A DNA stretch of 52,695 nucleotides from a virus. Shown piece by piece: positions 1,022 through 45,835 of this stretch. Under the pieces are notes generated by a model. That model worked only from the letters and a program-made list of their open reading frames with translations. It ran no database searches and was not told where the DNA came from. Made by a program: the position numbers and the translations under genes. The stretch lies in the IMG/VR virus record IMGVR_UViG_3300031730_000008, positions 1 through 52,695 of that record; one strand, 5' to 3'. Within the stretch, counting starts at the first letter, position 1; every line of letters begins with the position of its first letter.

Positions 1022-1632
1022 GCTACAGCCCCACTACCGACTTTCTTGCACTACTGCGGCAGACAGCCGCGGGCGTGAATTTTGAACGCATGCCGGGGCT
1101 CGACTTTGTCTTGGCTGCGCTTGCGCGTGCAGGAATGTTCAGCGTTTCGGTGGGGCAGACTGCGCCAATCGTCAACCAATCCTCCACTGCGTGGCTCCGG
1201 GCCGCGTCTCCGTCATGGACTGCGGAAGGTATCTTGTATCTGTGGAATGCCGCTACCGTACAGTACGAAGTTGCCACGCCTGCGCTCTGGACTGCATTGA
1301 TAGCGAGCGGCGGCAGCTATGCATTTCAGTTAGTTAGCGTGGCGGCTGGCGTTGTAAACAGTGGCGTATCGTTGCTTGCGGTCCAGCGTTCCGCTCCGGT
1401 CACAACTTCGTTGATGCTGCCCAATCTTGTTAGTCAGTGGAGTACTGGGCGCCGGCTTCAGGTCGTGGATTTTTCCACAGCCGTAGCCCGGCACGTCATT
1501 ACGCTCACGGTGCCGGACACTGCCACAATCATGCAACGTGCATCGTGGCAGCTCGTTTCTACTACCGATCAGCTCACTGGAGTGACGCTGCAACCCTCCC
1601 CTGAACTTAACGCTTGGATCATTGCACCATGA
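1018..1632 (+). CDS. Tail-fibre adaptor-like protein, paralogue B
   Basis: 204 residues. The first ~100 residues (MSYSPTTDFLALLRQ, RMPGLDFV, ALARAG, LYLWNA) are clearly paralogous to the proteins at 51731 and 50593. The C-terminal half is unrelated to those paralogues and looks beta-rich. No signal peptide is present. It lies between two exported-type adhesin genes and overlaps both by ATGA, so it is probably translated with them. A conserved N-terminal module with swapped C-termini suggests it docks a fibre to the tail while the C-terminus varies. That role is inferred; no named family was recognised. Confidence 0.7.
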   Translation: MSYSPTTDFLALLRQTAAGVNFERMPGLDFVLAALARAGMFSVSVGQTAPIVNQSSTAWLRAASPSWTAEGILYLWNAATVQYEVATPALWTALIASGGSYAFQLVSVAAGVVNSGVSLLAVQRSAPVTTSLMLPNLVSQWSTGRRLQVVDFSTAVARHVITLTVPDTATIMQRASWQLVSTTDQLTGVTLQPSPELNAWIIAP

Positions 1633-3236
1633 AATTCATTGCTTCCGTTATCATCGCTCTTTTGTTTTTGGTTGCGCCTGCCACCGCGCAGTGGCAGGTT
1701 CCCGCACATTCTTTGCCGGTGGGGCTGGGAGGCGGCAACACAGGCTTTAATTCAGTCGGGCCATGTGCTACCGGCGTCCCCTTTGTTGGCCAGGGGGCTA
1801 CCACAGATCCAGCATGCGCGCCTATCGATTTGAATGGTGCCGGGGTTACGGGCACGCTTCCGCCTGCGAGGCTGCAAGCAGTGCCGAACAGCGCTCTGAC
1901 GGCTATGCCTGCCAAAACATTGAAGGGCAACAACACTGCGAGCCCTCTGACACTTGATTTGACAATTGCACAGGTCAAGACTTTGTTGTCGGCGGTTCCA
2001 GCGGTTACCGATCCGCTATACGGTGCGGACCCTACAGGTATCGTTGACAGTACGACGGCATTTCAGAACATCATTAGTGCTGCATGCGGTAACGGTTTTG
2101 GACATTTCCGCGTCCCCGCTGGTCGCTATCTCGTTACTAAAATTAATCAAACCAATTGCAACAACGTAGTGATCGATGGGGACGGAGATCAGTCTACCAT
2201 CGTCATGAACGGTCAGGATTTTAACGGTAATTGGTGGGACCTGTCCGGTTCAAACAATATTTCGTTTTCGCATCTTCGATTTGTCGATGGTGGTTTTCCT
2301 GTACGTATTGGGTTTCTATGGGCATGTACTGGAACTAACTGCAACGCAAGCGGCATCGTTGCAGGGCTTTCCTTTGACCACGTTAACGTGAGCGGTAAAT
2401 TCGTCTTGGCCGGCCTGTACGGATATGGCTACGGTCCTCTGGCGTTTTCTAATGGCGGAACGTTGATGATTGCCAACGCCAACTGGCAAAATACGTATAA
2501 TGGTCCAGTTGCCGCGTCAGAACGGACACGTACTGCCGTACTGATGCTTACGGCGTACAATATAGGATCGATAGTTTCATCGTACGTAACCGTGACAGCG
2601 ACTACGGCCATCGCATCACAAACCCACCTCGTCAACGCTAATATAAACGACATGGCTACGTCGGGATCGACGCTCAGCAACAATGCGGCAATCGTAACCG
2701 ATGGCGTAAACCAGTTCACTATGGTTGGCGGGCAAGTGGCATGTCTATGCATTGCAGATTTCATTGGGTGGACGAGCGACGAAGGTGTAGTATTCATTCA
2801 AACGGCGTTTCAGGAACCACTTGGCGCCGTTGCGTGCACTACCAAGTTTTGGGCTTTGTTTGGCGGTGGTGTCAACGCAGCCATAGCTTTTCACAATGTG
2901 CTATTTTCATGTCCCGGTACTGCACCGAGCGCGATTATCGGACTTGATCAAGGCATCTCTGCAGGCGAGGGCGGGATTTGGTTTTTGACGTTCACTGGTG
3001 ACGATGTCGGATTGAATAGTTTCAATCGGCCATTTATCGGCAAGACGGCGTCGGGCTGCGGCGCCTTTGCTGCGGCAAACAATTGGATACTGCTAAGCAA
3101 TATCAATATGGTGTCCGGTGCCAACAATCTTGATTTGTGCGGAGGGATTGATAGTCGGACCATTATTCAAAACGTCGGCACTGTGACGTTAGTAGGTGGC
3201 GCTACGGACCACGGTGCAGCAAACCCATTCAGGTGA
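1629..3236 (+). CDS. Tailspike with pectate-lyase-like beta-helix and signal peptide
   Basis: 535 residues. Starts at 1629, where ATGA overlaps the preceding stop. Residues 1-23 form a textbook Sec signal peptide (charged start, hydrophobic core, ATAQ cleavage region). A Cys-containing module follows (GVPFVGQGATTDPACA) resembling the adhesin at 52330. From about residue 135 (YGADPTGIVDSTTAFQ) it has the start motif of the pectate-lyase-3/beta-helix superfamily, with VPAGRYLV and a long beta-helix carrying repeated N-rich turns. Such domains in tailspikes cut capsule or O-antigen polysaccharide. Enzymatic activity is inferred from fold resemblance. The export signal conflicts with ordinary cytoplasmic virion assembly. 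Confidence 0.75.
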   Translation: MKFIASVIIALLFLVAPATAQWQVPAHSLPVGLGGGNTGFNSVGPCATGVPFVGQGATTDPACAPIDLNGAGVTGTLPPARLQAVPNSALTAMPAKTLKGNNTASPLTLDLTIAQVKTLLSAVPAVTDPLYGADPTGIVDSTTAFQNIISAACGNGFGHFRVPAGRYLVTKINQTNCNNVVIDGDGDQSTIVMNGQDFNGNWWDLSGSNNISFSHLRFVDGGFPVRIGFLWACTGTNCNASGIVAGLSFDHVNVSGKFVLAGLYGYGYGPLAFSNGGTLMIANANWQNTYNGPVAASERTRTAVLMLTAYNIGSIVSSYVTVTATTAIASQTHLVNANINDMATSGSTLSNNAAIVTDGVNQFTMVGGQVACLCIADFIGWTSDEGVVFIQTAFQEPLGAVACTTKFWALFGGGVNAAIAFHNVLFSCPGTAPSAIIGLDQGISAGEGGIWFLTFTGDDVGLNSFNRPFIGKTASGCGAFAAANNWILLSNINMVSGANNLDLCGGIDSRTIIQNVGTVTLVGGATDHGAANPFR

Positions 3237-7769: not shown

Positions 7770-8422
7770 TTCTTCCCCTTAGCGCGCTGTGCTGCGTTGT
7801 AGTGGCTTTCCAGCGCCTTGACGATGAACTTCTCGCGCTGCTCTTTCGGCGCCGTGGACGAGACAAAACGATCAGCTTGCCGCCTGACTTCCTTCTGGAT
7901 GTCGGGTGGCGCATCGGTGATTTTCACCCACGGGCCGGACTTGCCCTTGGACGCGCTGCGGCCCGGTGCGTCGCCGTCGCCAGGACCGTCAGTCTTTTTC
8001 TTGGGCTTGACCTTGTCGTCATCGTCCTCGTCATCGTCCTTCGGGTCCGCAGGGTCGTCGTCATCGTCCTTCAGGTCGGCAGCGACGACCGGCGGTGCAA
8101 GTTTCTTGTCCACGGCCTTCACCAGCGCTTCGGCGAAGGCCGCTGCAGTCGCGAATTTCTTCGGGTCCATGGTTTTGCCAAGATCGACGGCCAAGGCTGA
8201 CCGCTCCGGGTCGACGCCGAACCACGCTTGCTTGTCCAGCTCCGCGGTGATCTCCGCATGTCCGAACGGCGGGGCCTTGGGCGCGGAGCTGACGGCCAGG
8301 GTAGCGATGTCGTTTGCGATCTTGGTTGCGGCTGCCGTGTCGCCGTTTGTCACGGCAGCGTCAAGCTGCGTCTGCAGGCCGGCGCGAGCTTGGTCGCGCA
8401 TCATCGTGTTGAGGTCGACCAT
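7766..8422 (-). CDS. Candidate scaffolding protein (acidic, helical)
   Basis: 218 residues. A helical N-terminal half is followed by an extremely acidic stretch (DLKDDDDDPADPKDDDED, about residues 118-138), a Lys-rich hinge and a basic helical C-terminus (AQRAKGKK). This charge layout and the position between portal and capsid genes fit phage scaffolding proteins, which assemble inside the procapsid and then leave. No sequence family could be named, so the role is inferred. TGATG overlap with the upstream gene. Confidence 0.6.
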   Translation of the reverse strand: MVDLNTMMRDQARAGLQTQLDAAVTNGDTAAATKIANDIATLAVSSAPKAPPFGHAEITAELDKQAWFGVDPERSALAVDLGKTMDPKKFATAAAFAEALVKAVDKKLAPPVVAADLKDDDDDPADPKDDDEDDDDKVKPKKKTDGPGDGDAPGRSASKGKSGPWVKITDAPPDIQKEVRRQADRFVSSTAPKEQREKFIVKALESHYNAAQRAKGKK

Positions 8423-8913
8423 CACAGCCCCTTGTAGGTAGTACGTTCGCGAATGGTCTCCGCGTACGGATCGAAAAGACCTAAACCGGCGCGTTCCGGT
8501 GGCGGTTTAGGCTCGTTTTCGTCCCAAACCAGCGTTGCCGGGTCCGGCATCCTGTCAGAGGGGATGATGCCGATCACATCTTGGAAGCTAGAGACGTAGC
8601 GCCAGCCACTTGTCACCATGATCTGACCGCCCTGCACCATGGTCCCGGCGAACGGACGGATAAGCACCCAGTCGCCGATGCCTACTTCCTGCCGGCTTAG
8701 GCCGTCGCCGTCCTTGTATTGGAATGCCAGCGGCCCCATGGCGACGATCCGACCGGCCATGACGTTGTGCGCGAGCAGATCGCGCGTCTGCTGAGGCACA
8801 ATCATGCTGCCGATTTTCTCCGGCGGGAACGGAATGCGGATGATGACCATGTCCCGCGTCGGCCGTACGAAGTCGTGCGGGATTTCGAAGCCGTAAAGAC
8901 CTACGCTGCTCAT
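8422..8913 (-). CDS. GroES-like co-chaperonin
   Basis: 163 residues. Residues ~15-105 follow the Cpn10 fold pattern: RPTRDMVIIRIPFPPE at the start, IGSMIVPQQT as the mobile-loop/beta-hairpin region, AGRIVAMGP, and VGIGDWVLIRPFAGTMV at the end, matching the GroES order 'rDrVlVk...GGIviP...GeVvAvGpG...vGDrVlf..yaGt'. The C-terminal ~55 residues are extra. Phage co-chaperonins such as T4 gp31 replace host GroES during capsid folding. Its place between portal and scaffold-like genes supports a capsid-folding role. TAATG overlap with the upstream gene. Confidence 0.75.
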   Translation of the reverse strand: MSSVGLYGFEIPHDFVRPTRDMVIIRIPFPPEKIGSMIVPQQTRDLLAHNVMAGRIVAMGPLAFQYKDGDGLSRQEVGIGDWVLIRPFAGTMVQGGQIMVTSGWRYVSSFQDVIGIIPSDRMPDPATLVWDENEPKPPPERAGLGLFDPYAETIRERTTYKGL

Positions 8914-17828: not shown

Positions 17829-17998
17829 TCTTTTAGTCTCCAGACGTCACCGTTGGAAAAATCGCACTCATACAAGGCTGGATCAGGTACCCGGTGCGTG
17901 CCGTTTTCGATTTGCTGGCGCGTTATGATACGCGGGCGATCGTCGATACGTTTGTACGGCGGGTCGTTCTTGATTGGCATTGCGTCTTTGTCGATCAT
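17825..17998 (-). CDS. Small hypothetical protein
   Basis: 57 residues (MIDKDAMPIKNDPPYKRIDD, RVPDPALYECDFSNGDVWRL). Its start overlaps the acetyltransferase stop as ATGA and its stop abuts the convergent ejection-protein gene, so it fills the gap exactly. Polar, no membrane segment. Function unknown. Confidence 0.65.
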   Translation of the reverse strand: MIDKDAMPIKNDPPYKRIDDRPRIITRQQIENGTHRVPDPALYECDFSNGDVWRLKD

Positions 17999-18516
17999 CT
18001 TGTAATCCCGTACACAAACACGTCTTGCGGCTCGTTGCTCAGGTTCGGAAAGAACGCGAACCGCCGCAGCCTGCCCTCGCGCTCCGCGCCCATGCGTGCC
18101 AGCACCTTCTGTACGGGTAAGTTGTCAACATGGCAATACGCCCAAACGCGCCAGATTTGCGGGTACGTGAAAATCCACTGCACGAACGGTACGGAGAACT
18201 CGCGACCGGCACCGCGGGCTTCGCGGCTGCGGTTGAACGCGATCGTGAGTGTCGCTTGATGTCCGCGGATTTCCAGTCCGACGATGCCAAGGAACCGGGT
18301 AGCCTGGGGTTTTGTGCCATCCAGTACAGAAAGCCAGCGACCGGGGCCAGCTTGGTACCGCGAGATCAACACGTTTGCTTCCATGACGTTGCGGAGCTGC
18401 GGCACGCCCATGTAGCGCACTGTATCGGCGTCGCCGAGCAAGGCGTACAGGTCCGGGGCGTCCCACAGGTTGACGTCCCGGATCGTAAAGCGGCCTAGTT
18501 GGGCGGTGGATTTCAT
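17995..18516 (-). CDS. GNAT-family N-acetyltransferase (RimJ/RimL-like)
   Basis: 173 residues. Start at 18516, ATGA overlapping the upstream stop. Pattern of the GNAT fold: FTIRDVNLWDAPDLYALL at the start, FLGIVGLEIRGHQATLTIAF as the central beta strands, a Gly-rich acetyl-CoA region (SREARGAGREFSVPFVQWIF) and WRVWAYCHVDNLPVQKVLAR near the end, as in RimJ/RimL. Would transfer acetyl from acetyl-CoA to an amine. In a phage the target could be a host or virion protein; unknown. Confidence 0.75.
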   Translation of the reverse strand: MKSTAQLGRFTIRDVNLWDAPDLYALLGDADTVRYMGVPQLRNVMEANVLISRYQAGPGRWLSVLDGTKPQATRFLGIVGLEIRGHQATLTIAFNRSREARGAGREFSVPFVQWIFTYPQIWRVWAYCHVDNLPVQKVLARMGAEREGRLRRFAFFPNLSNEPQDVFVYGITR

Positions 18517-39306: not shown

Positions 39307-39560
39307 TTACACCAACACCGGGCCGGATCATGTGGTACTGGCCAGTTAAAGACCAGCGTAGCGATCAACCGTGGGCCGCTATCGTAACCACCGTGTGGGA
39401 CGATAACATGGTCAATCTCTGCGCATTTACTCCTAACGGGGTGCCCACGGCAACAATGTCAGTTCCCATTGTTCAGGACGGTTCGCCGTACAGCATTGGC
39501 GACAGCCCGTACTGCGAATGGATGCCCTACCAGATCGGGCAGGCGAAGAAAAACGCGTAG
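39303..39560 (+). CDS. Conserved small phage protein
   Basis: 85 residues: TPGRIMWYWPVKDQRSDQPW, IVTTVWDDNMVNLCAFTPNG, YCEWMPYQIGQAKK. This pattern recurs in small proteins of many tailed phages; function is not established. ATGA overlap with the upstream gene. Confidence 0.75.
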   Translation: MITPTPGRIMWYWPVKDQRSDQPWAAIVTTVWDDNMVNLCAFTPNGVPTATMSVPIVQDGSPYSIGDSPYCEWMPYQIGQAKKNA

Positions 39561-39566
39561 GACCAA

Positions 39567-39869
39567 TTGCTTTCATGGCTCCAACCAAAGCAGCCTCAGA
39601 CGCCACGGGAACAGTTGCTTGCGTGGCTGGCCGAAGGCGTGCCGCCGGAGGATGCCTGCGAAGCGCTCGCGCTGATCTGGGATGTCGAGCGGCACCAGCC
39701 CGACGTCGTTCAGGCTGCGGCGCGCGGGCGCGTGGAGCTGTTCATCCGCGCCAAAGACAGCGGCGTGACTGGCGTTATTCGCGCGGCGATGCGGGTGGAG
39801 AGCAAGAGCTGGCAGCCCAAGGCGGAACCCATGCAGGGACTGTCGCTGGAGGATCTGTTGCGGGATTAG
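39567..39869 (+). CDS. Small helical protein
   Basis: 100 residues from TTG 39567 (AGGA five bases upstream). EQLLAWLAEGVPPEDACEAL, FIRAKDSGVTGVIRAAMRVE, end GLSLEDLLRD. The helical start followed by an acidic end is the size of a small terminase subunit, but no motif proves it. The 3' 95 bases are overlapped by a gene on the other strand. Confidence 0.55.
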   Translation: MLSWLQPKQPQTPREQLLAWLAEGVPPEDACEALALIWDVERHQPDVVQAAARGRVELFIRAKDSGVTGVIRAAMRVESKSWQPKAEPMQGLSLEDLLRD

Positions 39870-42372: not shown

Positions 42373-42903
42373 ATGAAGAAAATCCTACTCGGCATCGCGC
42401 TCGCGTTGTTCGCCATGCTGCCCGACGCCGTACGCGCGCAAGTCGTCGTGCAGGTGCCTTCGTTCGTGGCGCCCAGTACGCTGTTCGATTTCGGCAACGG
42501 GCCGCTCGAAATGCGCGTTGTGCAAGGCAACGCGTTATTCGCCACGGCGTCCAGCACGGGCGTCGGCAGCACGTCCGGCTCCGCTACGCTTTTGACGCTG
42601 ACGGCTATTCCGGCTACCCCTCCGTGCAATGGTTGTATCATCTCCGGGACGGGCATCACGTCAGGCACAACCGTATCGTCTTCAAACGGCAGTCTGCTCA
42701 CGCTGTCGGCGCTCATGACGGTTTCAGCTTCCACGGCGGTTGCATGGGGCGCTGCGTGTCCGACCACGCCCACCGGCCCGCAAACGCCTTTCCAGGCGGG
42801 TGTCAGCGGTGACACTCCGTTCTATACGCAAGCTCGTATCTGCGGCTACGGTGCAGCGGGTCCGGGCGCCTCAGTCGTGGCCTTCCCGATCGGAGCACAC
42901 TGA
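42373..42903 (+). CDS. Exported protein with signal peptide
   Basis: 176 residues. Sec signal peptide MKKILLGIALALFAMLPDAV with RAQ cleavage region, then a beta-rich Thr/Ser/Gly body. Four or more cysteines (PPCNGCIISG, AACPTT, RICGYG) could form disulphides in the periplasm. Ends FPIGAH. Followed directly by a second exported protein. Role unknown. Confidence 0.7.
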   Translation: MKKILLGIALALFAMLPDAVRAQVVVQVPSFVAPSTLFDFGNGPLEMRVVQGNALFATASSTGVGSTSGSATLLTLTAIPATPPCNGCIISGTGITSGTTVSSSNGSLLTLSALMTVSASTAVAWGAACPTTPTGPQTPFQAGVSGDTPFYTQARICGYGAAGPGASVVAFPIGAH

Positions 42904-42904
42904 T

Positions 42905-43186
42905 ATGCGGTATCTCATCGCGATAGTGCTGTTGTTCTTCGCGGTAGAAGCCACAGCAGCGGCCCAGACATCCAAATTCGGCATATCTTCGACGAGTGGC
43001 GCGGGAGGTGTGCAAATCCTGATGTCCACGGTGGCGCAGTTGCCGAATTGTGACGTCTCGCACATTGGCATACTTCGCGTTGTGAACGACGCTGCTACGC
43101 CTCTTGTTCTCGGACAGGCACTTATCGGCGGTTTTTCGACGACGCACCTCGCGCTTTGCAATGGTACGAGCTGGACCGTACGGTAA
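42905..43186 (+). CDS. Small exported protein with signal peptide
   Basis: 93 residues. Signal peptide MRYLIAIVLLFFAVEATAAA, then a compact beta domain (VQILMSTVAQLPNCDVSHIG, FSTTHLALCNGTSWTVR) with two cysteines. Starts two bases after the preceding stop. Immediately upstream of the O-antigen-ligase-like gene. Role unknown. Confidence 0.7.
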   Translation: MRYLIAIVLLFFAVEATAAAQTSKFGISSTSGAGGVQILMSTVAQLPNCDVSHIGILRVVNDAATPLVLGQALIGGFSTTHLALCNGTSWTVR

Positions 43187-43210
43187 GACCGGCGGGCTTT
43201 AGGAGCGCTG

Positions 43211-44299
43211 ATGTTCTGGCTCGGTGCCATCGTGTCGCTTTGCTACGTGCCCGGGGTGACCGGGGCATTCATTGCGACGCAATGGCCTGTGCTGGCCGTC
43301 GCGATGTCGGCCGCGCTGCTGTGGCGCCGCGGCCCGTTCACCCTCTACCACGGTCTGGGGCTGCTGTTCCTCGCCTACGCGACCGCGCATCTCTTGTTTA
43401 CGCCGGTGCCGTATGCGAGCGTGTTCGGTTGGTGGCTGATCGTCATCATGGGCATGTGCGTGTGGTTTGGCACGACCATGGAGACCGGCGGAACGGAACT
43501 GCGCGACCTCTACCGCGGGCTCGCGCTCGGCGGGGCCATATCGTCGGTCGTCGCCATGTTCCAGTGGTTGGGCTACGACCGCGTTCCGGTAGTGTCGGGG
43601 TTGCCGGCGGGGATCTACACCAACAGCATCCAGCAGGGCACGGTGCTGGCGCTGCTCGTCGTGGCGCTGATTTCGGAGCGTCTATGGCTTTGGGTTCCGT
43701 TCATGCTGCCGGGCATCATCCTATCGGGTTCGCGCGGTGCGTGGATTGCACTGGCGGTCGGGCTTTTGGCTTTCGGCGTCCGTCGGGCGTGGCTCCTGGG
43801 CGCCGTGGGCGTCGCCGGGGCGTTCTACCTCCTGGGACCGCTGTCGCCGTCCGATGTGCAGCGTATGGTCATCTGGGACGCGGCGTGGCATAACCTGACG
43901 TGGCTTGGCTGGGGACCGGGGATCTTCTACACCGTTCTCCTCCCGCAAGGCAGTCAAATGTTCTACCCGGAGCACGCGCACAATGATGCACTTCAGCTCG
44001 CATTTGAGTACGGCATCGGTGCGGTACCCGCATATGCGATCTTCGCTTTCGCGCTTTCCCGCACACGCACTCGAGAGTGGCCCCTCGTCGTCGCTTTCGT
44101 CGCAGCTGGTTGCTACTCTATGCCGCTTTGGATGCCGATTGCCTCGTTCCTTGCTCTTGTCGCTGTGGGCCGCATTCTTCGTACTTCAGTTGACGTTAGC
44201 GACGACAGCGATAATCGCGGACGCCAGGTCGTACCGTGGCGACGTACAGCGGGCAGCCAATCTGTTCCCTTGGCATCGTACCATACAGCAGAGGGCTGA
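43211..44299 (+). CDS. O-antigen ligase / polymerase-like membrane protein (Wzy_C type)
   Basis: 362 residues, about nine to ten membrane helices. A large loop near residues 200-270 contains the family signature EHAHNDALQLAFEYG (E254, H255, H257, N258) as in WaaL/Wzy proteins, and GSRGAWIAL earlier matches the conserved Arg-containing loop. Such enzymes join O-antigen chains to lipid A-core or polymerise repeat units at the periplasmic face. AGGAG six bases before the ATG. In a phage it would change the host's surface polysaccharide and so receptor availability. Confidence 0.8.
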   Translation: MFWLGAIVSLCYVPGVTGAFIATQWPVLAVAMSAALLWRRGPFTLYHGLGLLFLAYATAHLLFTPVPYASVFGWWLIVIMGMCVWFGTTMETGGTELRDLYRGLALGGAISSVVAMFQWLGYDRVPVVSGLPAGIYTNSIQQGTVLALLVVALISERLWLWVPFMLPGIILSGSRGAWIALAVGLLAFGVRRAWLLGAVGVAGAFYLLGPLSPSDVQRMVIWDAAWHNLTWLGWGPGIFYTVLLPQGSQMFYPEHAHNDALQLAFEYGIGAVPAYAIFAFALSRTRTREWPLVVAFVAAGCYSMPLWMPIASFLALVAVGRILRTSVDVSDDSDNRGRQVVPWRRTAGSQSVPLASYHTAEG

Positions 44300-44301
44300 G
44301 A

Positions 44302-44682
44302 ATGGCCGGCATTGATATTGAAAACAAATTCCCGAACAGCTACATGGCTCGCGCCGCGAAGATGGGCGAGAGCCGGTTCGTTTCGGATGACACACCTTCG
44401 CGCATTCTGGCTGGCGAACAGAACAACGTGTCAATCGCGGCCGCGGTTGGCCTAACCGTCCCAGTGAACACGGCGGCCGGCGCGCTGTCTTTCCCCGCGA
44501 CGTACGCCATCGTCACCGCGGTGGGTGGCACCATGTTCGTCACGTACGACGGGACCACGCCGTCCAACGTGAATTTCGGGATCTCGGTAGCCGCCGGGAC
44601 TTCGCTGCCCGTGCAGGGCGCGCAGGCGCTTGCGGCGATCAAGATGCAAGGCACTACGATGAGCGTAACCTACTGGAGCTGA
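44302..44682 (+). CDS. Small beta-rich protein sharing a module with 49246
   Basis: 126 residues. After an N-terminal ~40 residues, EQNNVSIAAAVGLTVP ... TYAIVTAVGGTMFVTYDG ... AAIKMQGTTMSVTYWS is nearly the same as the last ~85 residues of the tail protein at 49246. No signal peptide. Module sharing suggests a trimeric beta domain used in virion appendages. Confidence 0.7.
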   Translation: MAGIDIENKFPNSYMARAAKMGESRFVSDDTPSRILAGEQNNVSIAAAVGLTVPVNTAAGALSFPATYAIVTAVGGTMFVTYDGTTPSNVNFGISVAAGTSLPVQGAQALAAIKMQGTTMSVTYWS

Positions 44683-44686
44683 AACC

Positions 44687-45835
44687 ATGCGAAAGTATCT
44701 CGTAGCGCTCGCGCTTCTGGCCACGGTCTCAATGGCGTCGCTGTTGTGGCTGCCGCGCGCAATCACGCAGCAAGGCGGACAACTCCCGAACGGCGGTGGC
44801 GGCACCATCCAGGGGCCGAACGGCAACCCTGCGACCGTCAACGGCAACAACGAGATGCGGGTTAATATCGAGGGCCAGCAGCTCTTTGGCGATACCTTCG
44901 ATCAGCCTACGGCCGCGCCGGTTCTTAACACTACTCAGAATTGGACCGTTACGGCAGGTAACGGCGGCACTGCCGCTGCGCTGAACGGTACGGGCACCAA
45001 CAACGCCGGCTCCATCGGGATCAGCTCCGGCACGACCGCGGGCGGTTTCTCATGCGTCACCGGCAAGGTTGCCTATGCGCCCGTCCCTCCGGGTTTCCTT
45101 GTCTATGGGTTCCGTATTCAGCTTCCTGCGGCTCTCCCGGTCAACACGTACGCATTCTGGGGTGCGTCGGCTTCGCAGCTTGCTTCGCCCACGGTCGCGT
45201 CGCCGTTGACTGAGGGTCTTGGCACGGAAATCACGGCTACCGGAAAAATGCAAACGGTGTCCTATGCCGCTGGCGGGGGCGTTGGCGGCCGTACGCTGAT
45301 TACTGATCTTTCGGCAACTGGCACCAACAAGCAACCTTTAGACGGTGCGACGTACACGCACTATGAGTATTTCCGAGGTGACAAGTTCTACTTTGCGCTC
45401 ACGGATCAGGACAACATCACGTCGACAGGAACCGGCGCGCAGGGACCGAATATCAATTCAATGAAACCGACGATCTGCGTTATGGCGCAGGCCGGCGCGG
45501 TGTCCAGTTTGACGCTGACGGTGTCCTCGGTGTTCGTCGGCGACAACGGTCACAACACTATGGGGCTCACGCCGTACAGCTATTTTAACATGACGACGGG
45601 CACCACTTCCCTAGTGAAATCCGGTTCCGGTTTCCTTCACAATGTGTGCATCAACACACCGGCCGCCGGCACGCTGTTGGTGCTTGACAGCTTGACGGGC
45701 GCCGGCGTGCACATCGGCCAGTTGACGGAAGTGGCTGCGCAGATACCGGCATGCAGCATTTTTGACGTTCAGTTTCTCACCGGCTTGACGCTGAGCACCA
45801 CGGTAGCCGGCGACATCACGGCAAGCTACAGGTAG
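44687..45835 (+). CDS. Beta-rich putative virion protein with signal/anchor sequence
   Basis: 382 residues. N-terminal MRKYLVALALLATVSMASLL is a signal peptide or anchor. The rest is Gly/Thr/Asn-rich beta structure (GNNEMRVNIEGQQLFGDTFD, TYTHYEYFRGDKFYFALTDQ, TTSLVKSGSGFLHNVCINTP, LTLSTTVAGDITASYR), as in phage receptor-binding or base proteins. Function unproven; one of several exported-type structural-like proteins here. Confidence 0.65.
   Translation: MRKYLVALALLATVSMASLLWLPRAITQQGGQLPNGGGGTIQGPNGNPATVNGNNEMRVNIEGQQLFGDTFDQPTAAPVLNTTQNWTVTAGNGGTAAALNGTGTNNAGSIGISSGTTAGGFSCVTGKVAYAPVPPGFLVYGFRIQLPAALPVNTYAFWGASASQLASPTVASPLTEGLGTEITATGKMQTVSYAAGGGVGGRTLITDLSATGTNKQPLDGATYTHYEYFRGDKFYFALTDQDNITSTGTGAQGPNINSMKPTICVMAQAGAVSSLTLTVSSVFVGDNGHNTMGLTPYSYFNMTTGTTSLVKSGSGFLHNVCINTPAAGTLLVLDSLTGAGVHIGQLTEVAAQIPACSIFDVQFLTGLTLSTTVAGDITASYR

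Follow-up and report, generated by a model that had tools for sequence, protein, structure and literature searches.

A Wzy_C-family gene with a selected second reading frame among the virion genes of an uncultivated phage

Introduction

Temperate phages are known to convert the host surface with polymerases of their own, to the benefit of the lysogen. An enzyme of this kind that is under selection and encoded among virion genes, in phages where no integrase was found, raises the question of its advantage to a lytic phage. Such a locus is found in IMG/VR record IMGVR_UViG_3300031730_000008, an uncultivated soil-type phage of ~52.7 kb. The window analysed here is the whole virus record of 52,695 bases. 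Phage Wzy_C enzymes are already known; the present one is divergent and its setting unusual. The part a specialist would not expect is a second gene, itself under selection, embedded in the first.

Results and discussion

The window has family matches for terminase, a Mu gpT-like capsid protein, head closure, DNA polymerase, helicase and primase, as well as for a transglycosylase virion protein, a DNA-ejection protein, holin and endolysin. The gene at 43211–44299 sits in a co-directional run of virion and lysis genes, confirming its earlier placement within a structural region. Related genome records (27) were compared; end repeats in most of them suggest circularity, and G016 contains the same region as G015. 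The gene, here called wzy, is present in 13 of the 27 (G000–G009, G014, G021 and G023). The gene and its surroundings are as follows.

43211..44299, + strand: wzy_C / waaL-like gene (wzy); frame 0, ATG start, 362 aa, polytopic membrane protein
43201..43205, + strand: AGGAG ribosome-binding site of wzy, a sequence feature just 5′ of the ATG
42373..42903, + strand: g70, upstream neighbour, a signal-peptide-bearing protein conserved across most of the lineage's genomes; forms the left border of an accessory site
44302..44682, + strand: g73, downstream neighbour; in some relatives its start codon shares bases with the embedded stop (ATGA)

The region 43211–44299 is a true gene and its product belongs to the Wzy_C family. 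A match to the Wzy_C model (PF04932) had been predicted; once run, the genome search gave 33.7 bits (E 1.2e-9), above the curated gathering cut-off of 31.7 bits, and hmmscan gave 29.4 bits (E 8.3e-7) over residues 164–269, slightly below it. Relatives of the protein score 40 and 53 bits against the same model, and other carrier records exceed the cut-off in one of two and five of seven cases in separate searches. The homologs share 45–64% identity with a dN/dS of ~0.3, indicating purifying selection. Conservation extends to about residue 324; the last ~38 residues are unconserved. Nothing significant was found for the protein in PHROGs, NCBIfam or, by sequence, the PDB, and the GenBank phages and plasmids searched contained no match. 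Genome-contig scans with the Wzy alignment revealed no bacterial homologs, as was likewise the case for scans with the capsid protein.

Three sites in the protein are candidates for a catalytic role.

43979..44014, + strand: HX10G motif, His257 to Gly268; invariant in two homolog alignments (A4, A6)
43733..43735, + strand: Arg175 (SRG motif), putative counterpart of R215 in E. coli WaaL; invariant in 14 homologs
43862..43864, + strand: Arg218 (R..IW motif), putative counterpart of R288 in E. coli WaaL; invariant in homologs

Within the EHAHNDALQLAFEYG motif, H257, N258, D259, L261, Q262, E266 and G268 are invariant across 14 homologs. H257-X10-G268 thus has the form characteristic of Wzy_C proteins, an essential His in an HX(9-10)G motif of the last large periplasmic loop. 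The His of HX10G is essential in both WaaL and phage D3 Wzy-beta (PMC4815439), and R215, R288 and H338 matter for the function of E. coli WaaL (PMC3643930). A profile comparison of our protein with E. coli WaaL gave no match, and the putative equivalences (Arg175 to R215, Arg218 to R288) therefore rest on motif order. Hydropathy and the ~11–12 helices of the model place the number of membrane spans within the 10–14 expected for the Wzy_C superfamily. The loop and multi-span topology that the original prediction took as hallmarks are borne out by the invariant motif and these helices.

An AlphaFold model was built from a 14-sequence input (pLDDT 70, pTM 0.74); it places three helices C-terminal of the His motif. 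A fold search of the PDB matched the model to WaaL (7tpg) with a probability of 1.00 and a TM of 0.50, the E value being only 0.012 and the rmsd 8.4; every other PDB match has a probability of 0.07 or lower. The same search against a viral structure library returned nothing. As modelled, the wzy product has a WaaL fold. The likeness to WaaL (7tpg; E. coli WaaL) comprises this fold match and the Arg/Arg/His pattern, whereas the present protein is phage-borne and matches neither a PDB sequence nor the E. coli WaaL profile. An O-antigen ligase/polymerase-like enzyme, as first proposed, is supported by the Wzy_C match and independently by the fold match. A WaaL/Wzy-type enzyme is the best reading of the product, with ligase, polymerase and protein O-oligosaccharyltransferase being inseparable by sequence.

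The original prediction was right as to enzyme family but incomplete, in that the overlapping frame had gone unnoticed. Our computational tests show that the 3′ third of wzy is double-coding and that its second frame is under selection.

43983..44315, + strand: embedded +1-frame gene, 110 aa; starts within the catalytic His-Asn-Asp motif and overruns the end of wzy
43969..43972, + strand: GGAG, 10 nt 5′ of the embedded ATG and possibly its Shine-Dalgarno; scored in 9 of the 13 carriers
44184..44312, + strand: stretch of the embedded gene where dN/dS indicates purifying selection, in the +1 frame only

Beyond residue ~324 conservation is lost in the wzy frame, and it is the +1 frame that encodes a conserved membrane span with its tail. 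Close to this residue, variability moves from the third to the first codon position of frame 0. In the final ~40 codons the +1 frame has a dN/dS of 0.38 for close pairs and 0.27 for all pairs, compared to 1.26 and 1.40 respectively in the wzy frame. The idea that the frame-0 tail is itself kept open by selection was rejected, its openness not being above chance. A sequencing or assembly frameshift is ruled out by the presence of the +1 tail in 13 genomes and in distant phages.

From the internal ATG onward, the +1 frame of the 13 carriers contains 0 stops against 27.6 expected. The expectation derives from synonymous shuffling of wzy (2000 draws, counted to 16 codons past the SMPL motif, which itself lies 45 codons after the internal ATG). 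No draw gave fewer than 17 stops, and the product of the chances for seven deep representatives is 3e-10. Upstream of the ATG, as a control, observed (126) and expected (~120) stops are roughly equal. The internal ATG is built from the AAT GAY of the His-Asn-Asp motif and is present in all 13 carriers. Asn is usually AAC in the core genes, where AAT usage is 0.22–0.53, yet the motif Asn is AAT in 13 of 13 (product 8e-7 if independent). We infer that a separate small protein is translated from this ATG. The internal ribosome site is weak, the GGAG lying 10 nt away and being absent from some carriers; in G005, G006 and G008 the embedded stop overlaps the ATG of the next gene.

The embedded product is 106–118 aa long across the 13 carriers, with one predicted span in all of them. 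It consists of a basic, unconserved N-terminal part of ~55 aa, the membrane span and a conserved tail (ADxxSYRG...A.LFPWHRxIQQRA). In 12 of the 13 products the tail is less basic than the N-terminal part, and in one the two are equal; the predicted topology is N-in, C-out. The first ~45 residues vary freely (four-fold site variation of 0.67, the same as elsewhere), as if they were needed only to reach the conserved part. No convincing match to the tail was found in relatives lacking wzy, and the two genes are gained and lost together. Clean double coding across a catalytic motif is easily missed by ordinary gene callers. The embedded gene can be silenced without altering the enzyme, and its role is thus directly testable.

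Lambda Rz/Rz1 is the classic phage example of a membrane-protein gene that holds a small gene in its +1 frame; those proteins and their function are unrelated, and here the small gene extends past the end of the large one. We found no description of a gene embedded in a phage wzy or waaL in the open literature, a search with most subscription journals outside its scope. Two small proteins, YibX and YibY, are annotated antisense to E. coli K-12 waaL and overlap it (L226:1773-2150); overlapping small genes may recur in the waaL family.

Phage contigs L203, L204, L205 and L206/207 encode Wzy_C proteins 28–35% identical to ours. These contigs also have a +1-frame membrane span, followed by an (I/L)FP tail where the contig extends far enough; L208 lacks this arrangement. 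The Asn codon is AAC in L203–L207, therefore the same internal ATG is missing and a different start would be needed. No clear ribosome site for the +1 frame was found in these contigs, and the longer +1 products of L204/L205 gave no Pfam match to a TPR domain. By our own reading of the sequences, capsid-, portal- or terminase-like genes adjoin wzy in several distant contigs. At the start of L202/L220 is a wzy homolog (41% identity) broken by an in-frame stop.

In all 13 carriers wzy occupies one accessory site, downstream of g69/g70. No other Wzy_C protein was found in those records without wzy that were searched. It takes 7 changes to explain the presence and absence of wzy on a core-gene tree of 26 genomes, and the sister pairs G008/G017 and G003/G020 differ in this respect. 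G017 cleanly lacks both wzy and the embedded gene: it has ~44 bases between g70 and g73, the spot occupied by the wzy unit in G008. In the wzy-less genomes the site carries large genes, many with signal peptides. Matches at the site in relatives are to GDSL, GH26, BNR and pectate-lyase-like families, a glycan-active context.

We also observed that GDSL hydrolase, GH26, BNR/sortilin-like and pectate-lyase-like genes are swapped at this site (L136:12950-15627, L022:9531-12974, L156:2369-4810, L164:9142-10215). G018 (L156) has a tandem duplication of several kb there, and the site of G016 (98 kb, L183–L187), possibly a near-double assembly, is identical to that of G015.

The phage is probably, although not certainly, virulent, since no tyrosine integrase (PF00589) was found in 10 carrier genomes and a resolvase (PF00239) was absent from 11 of 12 carriers, G009 being the sole exception. 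The remark that no integrase is visible thus holds beyond the window, and the integrase expected of a temperate seroconversion module was not found in the carriers searched. The G009 exception is an open frame of 216 aa that matches serine resolvase (39458-39862 of the contig), seen in this one carrier only. A search with the capsid protein located relatives in 112 viral contig stretches, with identities of 85–94% among the 80 matches listed, and none in a genome collection of 84,980 species. Cultured relatives judged by the capsid protein (Alcaligenes, Roseobacter, Pelagibacter and Caulobacter phages) are at ~33% identity or less; eight GenBank phage records were checked and all lack Wzy_C. 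Two window genes on the − strand, one with a weak GroES-like match (8422-8913) and one acetyltransferase-like by eye (17995-18516), are of kinds that are also annotated in the Alcaligenes phage relative.

A wzy-type enzyme and a conserved embedded membrane protein are found together, therefore such phages may remodel the host surface by a two-protein unit. The reading we favour, and consider reasonably probable, is that a phage WaaL/Wzy-type enzyme and its embedded small membrane partner alter the host surface glycan late in infection. The family and fold, the invariant motif residues, the second frame and the co-inheritance are established computationally; the substrate, the membrane topology, the role of the partner and the benefit are inferred. 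The enzyme would reside in the host inner membrane, where it would use His257, with Arg175 and Arg218, to transfer sugar chains from host undecaprenyl pyrophosphate to an acceptor. The host surface glycan would thereby be changed late in infection, and a possible benefit is that progeny and competing phages stop adsorbing to the dying cell or its debris. The embedded single-span protein, inherited with the enzyme, probably acts on the enzyme or on the host's own polymerase. A more specific proposal, put forward tentatively, is that the pair may be a compact surface-conversion unit of apparently virulent phages, in which a one-span regulator or inhibitor is embedded from the catalytic-motif codons on, conserved across divergent groups and exchanged as a block with the enzyme at a glycan-active site.

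A programmed ribosomal frameshift (+1 or −2) near residues 317–324 could instead give access to the +1 frame, which would fuse the +1 span and tail to the Wzy_C protein and leave no separate small protein. The switch in codon position coincides with the end of the conserved wzy frame, the bases around it show conservation (GTG GGN CGY RTT CTT CGY in the majority), and CTT with a C after it is reminiscent of +1 slip sites. Such a mechanism has no need of a +1 frame free of stops for ~60 codons upstream of the switch, however, and 0 against 27.6 expected were counted from the internal ATG; it also leaves the AAT in 13 of 13 unexplained. No slippery site is common to all (L016 has CTG C, L021 ATT T), and the model already has its three helices past the His motif. 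A frameshift at residue ~320 was initially favoured and was demoted because of the stop-codon and AAT tests. We now regard it as unlikely, and it is kept alive mainly because L203–L207 retain the +1 tail without the same internal ATG.

As to the enzyme, PglL has the Wzy_C domain in common with WaaL and Wzy, and pglL is in many cases adjacent to its target (PMC3643930). A PglL/PilO-like protein O-oligosaccharyltransferase would glycosylate the phage's own secreted, Ser/Thr-rich virion-region proteins, and possible targets do adjoin the gene: g70, g71, g74 and many accessory-site genes start with signal peptides, and the distant carriers adjoin signal-peptide proteins too. Such proteins nevertheless seem equally common in genomes without wzy, and this linkage was therefore set aside as unspecific. 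The phage protein, unlike PglL/PilO, matches no NCBIfam model, and we think this activity quite improbable. It is very unlikely that wzy is conserved cargo with no surface role, a host-derived wzy/waaL copy kept for some other reason with the overlapping frame as a by-product. The patchy distribution, with its seven changes on the tree, would fit cargo, but both frames are under purifying selection, the position is fixed, the motif residues are intact and distant phages have the same arrangement.

For the favoured pairing of enzyme and small partner, the closest precedent, by analogy, is Pseudomonas phage D3, in which Wzy-beta is paired with Iap, a 31-residue peptide that inhibits the host polymerase by mimicking a Wzz span (PMC12004945, PMC4815439). 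Both are phage-encoded polytopic Wzy_C proteins with an essential (here, invariant) His in HX10G and a small partner acting, or here predicted to act, at the membrane (PMC4815439, PMC12004945), and the likeness is functionally reminiscent. Like Iap, the embedded product is a small one-span membrane protein encoded with a phage polymerase-type enzyme, although of 106–118 aa rather than 31 aa. In D3, a temperate phage, the unit acts to convert the lysogen; the present gene is instead placed among the virion genes of phages in which no integrase was detected, and the small protein is encoded within the gene for the enzyme. Variovorax phage VarioGold also encodes a Wzy_C protein, VG_p25, with ~10 spans and adjoining small membrane or signal-peptide proteins (PMC9658991); that phage differs in being temperate with an integrase, and VG_p25 is oriented against the late genes. 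A tblastn search of phage records with our protein matched neither D3 nor VarioGold.

Signal peptides, identified by eye, start many virion-region genes of the window, a tail-spike-like one included (1629-3236, 42373-42903, 42905-43186, 44687-45835), and the same pattern is seen across the corresponding region of most relatives. Two genes in G010 and G011 start with twin-arginine-like signals (SRRALIGG, KRRDFLTG).
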